Shown here in pieces: positions 3,484-29,836 of a stretch of DNA of 33,974 nucleotides (within the stretch, counting starts at the first letter, position 1; the number at the start of each line of letters is the position of its first letter). The position numbers and the translations under genes were made by a program. The notes under the pieces are model-generated. The model saw only the letters and a list, made by a program, of their open reading frames with translations. It made no database searches and had not been told where the DNA came from. Source of the stretch: a virus; IMG/VR virus record IMGVR_UViG_3300025000_000284, positions 1-33,974 of that record. One strand, written 5' to 3'.

Positions 3484-3594
3484 TCCACGGTGCGGGATTT
3501 GAACCCGCGAGCCCGTTTTTCGCCAGTATCCAACCTGTCATTAAGTATCCGGGCTTTTGTTGGTGTCAACCTTAAACCTCTCGGTCAACCGTGC
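3484..3594 (-). tRNA. Class-II tRNA-like gene, anticodon arm not identifiable
   Basis: The minus strand has a 6-bp acceptor (CACGGT/ACCGTG, G-G at the end), a class-II D-arm (ACC GAGAGGTTTAA GGT with the GG pair), and a canonical T-arm (GCGGG TTCAAAT CCCGC). These are the features of bacterial tRNA-Ser or tRNA-Leu. However, 59 nt separate D-stem and T-stem, roughly 20 more than usual, and no 5-bp stem with a 7-nt loop exists there. Instead CCAAC can pair with GTTGG and AGCCCG with CGGGCT, which interleave as a possible pseudoknot. No CCA is encoded. It may be a degenerate tRNA-Ser, an interrupted tRNA or a tRNA mimic. Confidence 0.55.
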
Positions 3595-4680: not shown

Positions 4681-4756
4681 TATCGGCGTGGCAGGATTCC
4701 AACCTGCAATCCGGGGCTAACAACCCCGTGTCTTTTCTGCTCTGACCCCCGCCGAT
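4681..4756 (-). tRNA. tRNA-Asn(GTT)-like gene with aberrant elbow
   Basis: Perfect stems are present on the minus strand: a 7-bp acceptor (ATCGGCG/CGCCGAT), a 5-bp anticodon stem (CGGGG/CCCCG) around TTGTTAG, which places GTT (Asn) after U33, and a 5-bp T-stem (GCAGG/CCTGC). The T-loop is TTGGAAT, so the usual C56 is missing. The D-arm is only GTC/GAC with an A-rich loop without the usual GG. Two extra nucleotides lie between T-stem and acceptor. No CCA is encoded. It could be a decayed phage tRNA or a structural mimic. Confidence 0.55.
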
Positions 4757-4809
4757 ACGATTAAATCAAACTCAGCACCCGCAATATCCTCCTTCGGCTT
4801 ATAGCCTGT

Positions 4810-9022: not shown

Positions 9023-9057
9023 AAAAATACCGCCTCTCATATTCGCCTTTTATTAAA

Positions 9058-9113
9058 ATCCTGCAAGGCGGCTAAGGCTTACCGCCGTTCGGGTGTACAG
9101 CCCTATGCAGGAT
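9058..9113 (-). ncRNA. Compact 56-nt D-armless tRNA-like element
   Basis: Minus strand: an 8-bp closing stem (ATCCTGCA/TGCAGGAT) encloses two hairpins and little else. The first is GGG CTGTACA CCC, with a 7-nt loop in the anticodon-arm position (GTA after U33). The second is GGCGG/CCGCC with a 10-nt loop, next to the acceptor as a T-arm would be. There is no D-arm. It is followed by ATTTTAATAAAAGG and the HNH start. A three-way-junction regulatory RNA is the alternative to a tRNA mimic. The loop contains TGTACA, the motif repeated near the RepL-like gene. Confidence 0.45.
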
Positions 9114-12248: not shown

Positions 12249-12251
12249 CAG

Positions 12252-12318
12252 ACGTTTGGGCGTCTTTAAAAAGGCTTTTAAGCCCAAAGCGGTGCAGACT
12301 GAAAGGAGCTGCACCTAG
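12252..12318 (+). promoter_or_regulatory. Alternative hairpins in spacer (attenuator-like)
   Basis: AGACG/CGTCT with a short T tract can form, or alternatively TTTGGGC can pair with GCCCAAA downstream; the two share bases. A third hairpin, GGTGCAG/CTGCACC with an 11-nt loop, follows. Mutually exclusive pairing is the mark of an attenuator, but the T tract is short. Confidence 0.35.
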
Positions 12319-12344
12319 CAAATTTGAAAGGATGGGATTGAATT

Positions 12345-13043: not shown

Positions 13044-13048
13044 TGCAG

Positions 13049-13101
13049 AGGACAGCCGAAAGGCTGTAATGCTACAGTCTGGTTCCAAGTCCAGACAGGC
13101 T
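13049..13101 (+). other. Two strong hairpins before 381-aa gene
   Basis: ACAGCC-GAAA-GGCTGT, extended by GCA/TGC, and GTCTGG-TTCCAAGT-CCAGAC stand side by side in the spacer. Neither has a T tract, so they are not terminators. RNA processing or stabilisation is plausible. Confidence 0.4.
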
Positions 13102-28755: not shown

Positions 28756-28893
28756 TTAATTGTTTTCGAGTGTCACGGCGTAAGCTACCAAATTGTTGAT
28801 TGTTCTTGCCACTTCGCAAGCTTCCATAGTACATGCCGTGTTTTCTTTCTGCAATTTTTCAATTTGGCCTTCAATGACTGCTTTGTAATCCAT
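28756..28893 (-). CDS. Small helical phage protein (45 aa)
   Basis: ATG 28893 with TATAGGAGGTAGTT. The product, MDYKAVIEGQIEKLQKENTA, then ARTINNLVAYAVTLENN, is helical with two cysteines, typical of small early phage proteins. Its leader contains the 28930 tRNA-like element and a GCC-GAAA-GGC hairpin. Confidence 0.65.
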   Translation of the reverse strand: MDYKAVIEGQIEKLQKENTACTMEACEVARTINNLVAYAVTLENN

Positions 28894-28898
28894 AACTA

Positions 28899-28927
28899 CC
28901 TCCTATAAATTTATTAGCCTTTCGGCT
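28899..28927 (-). promoter_or_regulatory. Structured leader, copy B
   Basis: AAGCC-GAAA-GGCT followed by AATAAATTTATAGGAGG, the same SD module as at 28699. It directly follows the tRNA-like element at 28930-28987. Confidence 0.5.
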
Positions 28928-28929
28928 TG

Positions 28930-28987
28930 TGGGGAAGGTGAGAATTGCACTCACTAAGGGACCAACATGAGGTCCGCTACTTCCCCA
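28930..28987 (-). ncRNA. 58-nt D-armless tRNA-like element
   Basis: Minus strand: an 8-bp acceptor-like stem (TGGGGAAG/CTTCCCCA), TAGC linker, GGACC-TCATGTT-GGTCC (5-bp stem, 7-nt loop), CTTA linker, GTGAG-TGCAATT-CTCAC (5-bp stem, 7-nt loop keeping C56 and A58 of a T-loop), directly abutting the acceptor strand as in tRNA. All 18 pairs are Watson-Crick. The D-arm is absent, and position 33 is C, so decoding is doubtful. The last codons of the HNH gene (HHGEVADLMLVP) are read from it. Confidence 0.6.
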
Positions 28988-29442
28988 TGATGAATTTCTG
29001 GCGTTATATTGCGCCAAGATTTTCGATTTTTGATTCTGAGTATAGTAGATTTAGAAACCCCGTATTTTGCAGCTATTTTATTATTTGAGTTGCTGTCGTT
29101 GAGAATTACTAAAACTTGTTGGCTTGTTAATTTGGATTGTCCGTTACTTTCTCCAGGTAGAATCCCATTACGGTTTCTACCTTTTTTCACCATGTCTTGC
29201 GTATTGTCTTTTCGAGTTCCAAGAAACAAGTGTTGAGGGTTTATACACGGCGGATTATCACACTTATGGCAAACGCATAATCCTTCTGGTATTTCACCAA
29301 AACATTGTTCGTAGACAAATCTACTTAAAAAATATCTCTGCCCATCGGATTCACATTGAGGATATCCACCTTTGACTCTATGGTGGCTTGCGCAAACCCA
29401 ACAACCGTTTTCATCCGCTTCCCACTCAATAGCCTTTTTCAT
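28954..29442 (-). CDS. HNH homing-type endonuclease
   Basis: I start at ATG 29442 (SD AAGGAG, 9-nt spacing), giving 162 residues. Motifs: CWVCASHHRVKGGYP, VYEQCFGEIPEGLCVCHKCD, then NPPCINPQHLFLGTRKDN, the full HNH_3-type core of phage homing nucleases. An HTH-like tail follows (LTSQQVLVILND, KIAAKYGVSKSTILRIKNRK SW). Family members usually end soon after SWRxI; here 16 extra residues run into the tRNA-like element. Likely a mobile selfish gene. Confidence 0.85.
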   Translation of the reverse strand: MKKAIEWEADENGCWVCASHHRVKGGYPQCESDGQRYFLSRFVYEQCFGEIPEGLCVCHKCDNPPCINPQHLFLGTRKDNTQDMVKKGRNRNGILPGESNGQSKLTSQQVLVILNDSNSNNKIAAKYGVSKSTILRIKNRKSWRNITPEIHHGEVADLMLVP

Positions 29443-29467
29443 TTGTTTGTTCTCCTTTCTTAGTTTG

Positions 29468-29559
29468 AAGCGGGCGAACCTCACTGATTAGCCCGCTTGA
29501 TTAAGTTGATCCGTTTTATTTTGCATGAGGCCGCTGCGTACATGCCCCCGCTGCTCTAA
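29468..29559 (-). other. Hairpin and short spacer upstream of HNH gene
   Basis: AAGCGGGC/GCCCGCTT (perfect 8 bp, 15-nt loop, 29468-29498) lies just before the HNH SD. It has no T tract. The remainder to 29559 has GC-rich CAGCGG repeats and no gene. Confidence 0.4.
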
Positions 29560-29691
29560 CTAAAAGAATCCGCTTGGGTATCCGGTTACATCTGAACGCT
29601 GTACTGGCTTGCAGAAGTATTGACATTGAACGAGAATCGATGTTACGTTGTTGATTCTCAATGCCTCAAACCAGTTGTATCCGAAAATCAT
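29560..29691 (-). CDS. Small phage protein (43 aa)
   Basis: ATG 29691 with GGAGGTAAAGGGAT. The 43-residue product starts MIFGYNWFEALRINNVTSIL and ends VTGYPSGFF; it is aromatic and has two cysteines. No family recognised. The SD and spacing are good and no better frame exists here. Confidence 0.6.
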   Translation of the reverse strand: MIFGYNWFEALRINNVTSILVQCQYFCKPVQRSDVTGYPSGFF

Positions 29692-29695
29692 ATCC

Positions 29696-29836
29696 CTTTA
29701 CCTCCGACACTTTTATTCTTTAGCCCGGTACATATCGACCTGTACCAAATAATAGTGGGCTAGCTGGCGGGCTTTATGGATGAACCCACTGAACCGCTTA
29801 GAAACTTTACAAATGAAACATAATTCTCAGCCTGCT
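29696..29836 (-). other. Structured noncoding spacer
   Basis: About 140 nt without a gene. AGTGGG/CCCACT and AGCCCG/CGGGCT can each enclose sub-hairpins, including GTACA/TGTAC. GGGCTAGCTGGCGGGCT repeats GGGCT. A 10-codon frame (MPMCPTNKAG) with AGGTAGGTG lies at its start. It is likely a structured leader of the 43-aa gene; details need folding. Confidence 0.3.

Follow-up and report, generated by a model that had tools for sequence, protein, structure and literature searches.

The 58-nt element E1, which lies on the minus strand at 28987-28930 of the window (by which we mean the whole 33,974-nt stretch of viral DNA that was analysed), is confirmed to be a real element. It is most likely, with a probability of roughly 0.6, a non-decoding relic of a phage tRNA that arrived with an HNH endonuclease cassette and is now passive or an incidental substrate of RNA processing. 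This explanation is built on the structure of E1, its tRNA origin, an insertion at this site and the loss of the decoding signatures. The surrounding genes are read from this strand too. The parts of E1, with the arms and linkers read from the sequence, are as follows.

28930..28987, minus strand: E1, a three-way-junction tRNA-like element (fold, R2 model described below, Rfam tmRNA match)
28987-28980/28937-28930, minus strand: acceptor-like stem, 8 bp
28979-28976, minus strand: first linker, UAGC
28975-28959, minus strand: middle arm GGACC-UCAUGUU-GGUCC, 5 bp with a 7-nt loop
28958-28955, minus strand: second linker, CUUA
28954-28938, minus strand: T-arm GUGAG-UGCAAUU-CUCAC, 5 bp with a 7-nt loop, abutting the acceptor

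The 8-bp acceptor-like stem and the two 5-bp arms with 7-nt loops, claimed in an earlier note to be entirely Watson-Crick, are indeed so in 18 of 18 pairs. The acceptor consists of seven Watson-Crick pairs extended by a U-A pair, and the T-arm is stacked directly on the stem, which is a feature of canonical tRNAs. The fold has an energy of -25.6 kcal/mol (z -3.8), and none of 200 dinucleotide shuffles equalled it. The tRNA-like order of the arms, for which the note named no strand, holds on the minus strand only. The plus-strand reading, which gives an equally good fold, was rejected, as in it the T-arm would not adjoin the acceptor.

A strict geometric scan of the window returned E1 as the single match, and the same geometry had no matches in 4.08 Mb of first-order Markov sequence; about 0.03 matches per window are expected for a looser geometry with U54/A58. 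In 4.3 Mb of fetched loci, which contain about 1,200 ARAGORN tRNAs, all other occurrences of the layout of E1 lie within intact tRNAs, as alternative readings of these, and the kept matches of a D-armless pattern scan contained no second convincing case. Two candidates were rejected: the one in L399 has six acceptor pairs but also an alternative reading with a long D-stem, and the "D-armless Gln" of L078 is an intact tRNA. The clean D-armless geometry of E1 is rare, and in this respect the unusualness claimed earlier stands, whereas a decayed tRNA in the company of an HNH gene is more ordinary.

As a tRNA, E1 keeps U8, A9, G53, U54, C56, A57, A58, C61 and A73. The D-arm is absent, as had been claimed, and only the 4 nt of UAGC separate the acceptor from the next arm. 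Because the middle arm could derive either from an anticodon arm or from a class II variable arm, "D-armless" is one reading of E1. Read as an anticodon loop, the middle loop UCAUGUU has C33 and not U33, the loss of which had been spotted correctly (C33 occurs in 31 of 1134 tRNAs), and U37 in place of a purine, and its CAU is out of anticodon register. The T-loop UGCAAUU has the complete U54-U55-C56-R57-A58 motif except for U55, a contact point with the D-loop in complete tRNAs; G55 is seen in 13 of 1134 tRNAs. Judged from these bases, E1 cannot decode by the usual rules. ARAGORN called neither a tRNA nor a tmRNA over the window, leaving E1 and the elements E2 and E3 described below uncalled, and E1 does not reach the RF00005 gathering score.

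The covariance model R2, for which the D-arm was deleted in silico from 23 real tRNAs, finds E1 with exact ends (24.0 bits, E 3.8e-5). A search of 301 bacterial genomes of the class of Sporomusa with the model R1, for which E1 was the only sequence, yielded 14 matches of 19.5-25.3 bits. Ten of the 14 loci were fetched, and the ARAGORN check covered nine, that is, all except L472 and the four unfetched matches. Genes for tRNAs, mainly tRNA-Leu, stand at or overlap most of these matches; the match at 1501-1554 of L467, near the end of the locus, has no ARAGORN call. The T-arm of E1 is identical to that of a viral tRNA-Glu at 16 of 17 bases. The best Rfam match to E1 is tmRNA (E 8.6e-5), and tmRNA and tRNA belong to the same Rfam clan. 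E1 is thus clearly tRNA-derived, and its tRNA homology and lost decoding features fit a tRNA-derived pseudogene. Homologues of E1 were not found in viral contigs, phage records or the 301 bacterial genomes; scans of the viral contigs with exact degenerate patterns of E1 and of E2 had 0 matches, and blastn against phages returned weak leader or T-arm matches only.

The neighbourhood of E1 contains the following features.

28954..29442, minus strand: HNH endonuclease gene, 162 aa (PHROG 59, E 4e-32)
28931..29766, minus strand: 836-nt insert relative to L146/L147 (pairwise alignment, both flanks)
28916..28927, minus strand: leader hairpin AGCCGAAAGGCT, then AATAAATTTATA (identical in L146/L147, before a different gene)
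28899..28903, minus strand: Shine-Dalgarno (SD) sequence GGAGG (sequence)
28756..28893, minus strand: 45-aa ORF downstream of E1, with its ATG at 28893 (sequence)

In agreement with the overlap that had been described, the HNH gene ends within E1: its stop codon (TAG, 28956-28954) is inside the second linker, and the last 12 codons and the stop lie at or in E1. Most homologues of the HNH protein end near residue 146-150, and the last dozen codons here are therefore tRNA-derived. The relatives L146 and L147 are syntenic with the window and present the empty site. Their left flank ends AAGCCCGC and their right flank begins one base on, ACCAGCCGAAAGG, with 836 nt between the two in the window. 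This insert contains a small ORF, the HNH gene and E1, whose last acceptor base is where the insert ends; E1 thus lies at the terminus of the inserted HNH cassette. None of the syntenic relatives L146, L147 and L188 has E1. The clean match of the insertion junctions to two relatives, together with the degeneracy of E2 and E3, makes it unlikely that E1 is an assembly-damaged copy of a full tRNA, an objection that the earlier note itself had raised.

In L007, L018, L020 and L078/L080, members of the window's HNH family have a tRNA gene no more than 300 nt away; in L078 the gap to tRNA-His is only 8 nt. HNH genes are modestly enriched near tRNAs (10 of 38 tRNAs have one within 300 nt, against about 10% of bases), and SegB homing endonucleases co-localise with tRNAs (PMC13096335). 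An intact homologous tRNA beside the window's HNH gene was not found.

On the 3′ side, E1 is followed by the hairpin, an A/U stretch, GGAGG and the ATG, so that the structured SD leader reported before is present. L146 and L147 have the same leader and no tRNA-like element before it, and the 45-aa ORF has a 39% homologue in L188, also with no tRNA-like element upstream. The search for a sigma-70-like promoter or terminator around E1 gave no match. In viral contigs, 49 of the 80 T-arms with an SD and an ATG downstream of them belong to intact tRNAs. The location of E1 5′ of an SD is weak evidence for its function because intact phage tRNAs often stand there too. The proposal that E1 is a signal and not a decoder holds as far as decoding is concerned (C33, U37, out-of-register CAU). 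The part that considered a processing signal or translational element is conjectural: the predicted fold contains no sequestration of the SD by E1, and no homologues were found that would show covariation. In other leaders of the same phage group, unrelated GC hairpins precede the same A/U-rich SD. Related phages share a leader cassette (GC hairpin, AATAAATTTATAGGAGG) that stands in front of various small genes: at 28927-28899 and 28731-28699 of the window, L147:3829-3860 and L188:14306.

The window contains two further degenerate tRNAs.

4681..4757, minus strand: E2, degenerate tRNA, Asn GUU-like (RF00005 21.4 bits, gathering score 29; fold)
3486..3593, minus strand: E3, degenerate class II tRNA, Leu/Ser-like (R2 20.0 bits on the T-arm, E 7e-4; fold; sequence)

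E2 has an 8-bp acceptor, a damaged D-arm and intact anticodon and T stems, and is located directly 5′ of the SD leader of ORF 4653-4174. E3, which is upstream of the portal gene (3396-1327), has a 6-bp acceptor, a D-arm of the Leu/Ser type, a rearranged anticodon/variable region and a perfect T-arm. Thus, in all three elements the T-arm is kept, as is almost the whole acceptor, D or anticodon parts are damaged, and a gene follows. With the acceptor/T-arm stack read by RNase P and RNase Z retained three times in a single 34-kb contig, phages of this group might reuse tRNA genes stripped of their D or anticodon parts as pre-gene processing or punctuation elements, although we regard such a general practice as doubtful.

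If E1 is a relic, a phage tRNA gene would have lost its D-arm region (or its anticodon arm, should the middle arm be a former variable arm), and E1 would have entered the phage lineage as the 3′ end of a cassette composed of a small ORF, an HNH endonuclease and a tRNA. We infer that E1 is transcribed together with the minus-strand genes and that its RNA would fold into an acceptor/T-arm stack with one additional arm. RNase P recognises the T-stem-loop/acceptor stack (PMC4919913), and because the bacterial enzyme measures this stack, E1 may be its substrate. RNase P and RNase Z could plausibly cut the predicted fold where the acceptor begins and ends, which would leave the 45-aa gene with an mRNA whose 5′ end is defined, of possible benefit to the phage. 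Absent cleavage, E1 would be a passive structured spacer. Several points speak against a relic. The 18 of 18 perfect pairs, despite the loss of U33, U55 and position 37, exceed what is expected of neutral decay unless the loss is recent, and the ancestral isotype of E1 cannot be named; the failure to find an intact homologous tRNA beside the HNH gene and the modest size of the HNH enrichment near tRNAs count against it as well. Perfect stems and degraded loops are a hint of structural selection, but recent loss is also an explanation for them.

Such selection is the essence of the alternative in which E1 has been exapted, with its acceptor/T-arm stack kept as RNase P/RNase Z punctuation between the HNH message and the 45-aa gene, stabilising the latter. 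This is possible, if unlikely. It would account for intact pairing alongside lost decoding loops and for the T-arm/acceptor and pre-gene location common to E1, E2 and E3, and RNase P does cut non-tRNA substrates, including the phage M3 and C4 RNAs (PMC11143913). However, intact phage tRNAs also commonly precede SDs, the same leader is present in the relatives without a tRNA-like element, and a cut at the 5′ end of E1 would delete the HNH stop codon. We rank a relic or incidental substrate first and a selected processing element second.

It is improbable that E1 is an independent three-way-junction RNA, a riboregulator or leader that merely resembles a tRNA. A middle loop without U33 and purine 37 and the unrelated GC hairpins of the other leaders are consistent with such an RNA, but the nearly identical T-arm and the R1 and R2 models, which approach from both directions, point to tRNAs, and no riboswitch or cis-regulatory Rfam family matched the region around E1 at E<=10. 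We consider a minimal tmRNA-like tRNA domain, comparable to the 79-nt TLD-like elements of L235 and L282, very improbable: tmRNA is the best Rfam match, but it scores 16.9 bits against a gathering score of 47, and the tmRNA D-loop signature (GGxUUCGAC type) and the tag ORF are absent. Least credible of all is a functional D-armless tRNA of the kind found in some mitochondria, for although the geometry (7+4+17+4+17+7+1) fits and the middle loop contains CAU, the bases at 33 and 37, the register of the anticodon, the loss of U55 and the failure of ARAGORN to recognise E1 all argue against it, and no bacterial factors adapted to D-armless tRNAs are known.

Decayed phage tRNAs are already known. 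What is unusual is a tRNA without a D-arm whose stems are all intact and which is joined to an HNH cassette; our literature search found no description of such an element in phages. Pseudo-tRNAs such as the predicted B. cereus tRNA-Other, which has a Trp anticodon and is charged poorly (PMC3399842), are like E1 tRNA-derived, folded, non-decoding and tied to mobile DNA, but E1 is without one whole arm and keeps every remaining pair. The D-armless tRNAs of metazoan mitochondria (~57 nt) share with E1 the three-way junction of acceptor, one 5-bp/7-nt arm and T-arm, whereas E1 has neither U33 nor a usable anticodon, a phage context and no known partner machinery. The tRNA 3′ fragments of prophage att sites (PMC9897764) are, like E1, tRNA remnants in viral contigs, and fragments of this look are present in L107, L111, L135 and L183, the G003 tRNA match in the last of these resembling an att-site tRNA-Leu remnant. 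They comprise the 3′ part only, whereas E1 has both acceptor strands and is located in an early operon with no integrase beside it. Non-tRNA substrates of RNase P (M3, C4 RNA, tmRNA and MALAT1 mascRNA) have an acceptor and T-arm stack measurable by the enzyme, as is predicted for E1. If E1 is a relic only, it is a record of how phage tRNAs decay and move about together with HNH genes, and an example of the sequences that tRNA finders overlook. If E1 is processed, phage mRNAs would have a mechanism of tRNA punctuation, and E1 would be a minimal substrate of bacterial RNase P/Z that occurs in nature.

Other tRNA-like sequences were encountered in the fetched loci. Ten phage elements of 83-190 nt (L225, L236, L248, L252, L259, L275, L277, L286, L302 and L303) have a perfect 7-bp tRNA acceptor and a T-arm, several also a D-arm, with the anticodon region enlarged or replaced; they lie just 5′ of an SD and have no ARAGORN call. 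L235, L282 and L269 carry lookalikes of the tmRNA tRNA-like domain of about 79 nt (TGGTTTCGAC...GGACAGGGGTTCGAATCCCCT), in which a short hairpin replaces the mRNA part. An element of about 200 nt at L110:11609-11810 (AGGGCGG...GCAGGTTCGAATCCTGC-CCGCCCT-T-CCA, with an encoded CCA) precedes an XF1762-like gene and has no Rfam match. The motif GGTTACTTC-NCTNNTAA marks tRNA-like sequences that recur in viral loci (L348, L354, L364, L383, L393, L418 and others) and are uncalled by ARAGORN; they may be tRNAs whose D-stem is extended. A 158-kb phage has within its tRNA array a 62-nt tRNA-like sequence (L007:2744-2805) with an acceptor and T-arm and without a normal anticodon arm. Finally, Rfam matches in the window include a Pistol ribozyme (12250-12320, plus strand), a Twister-P5 ribozyme (13044-13094, plus strand) and an int-alpA RNA (9046-9113, minus strand).
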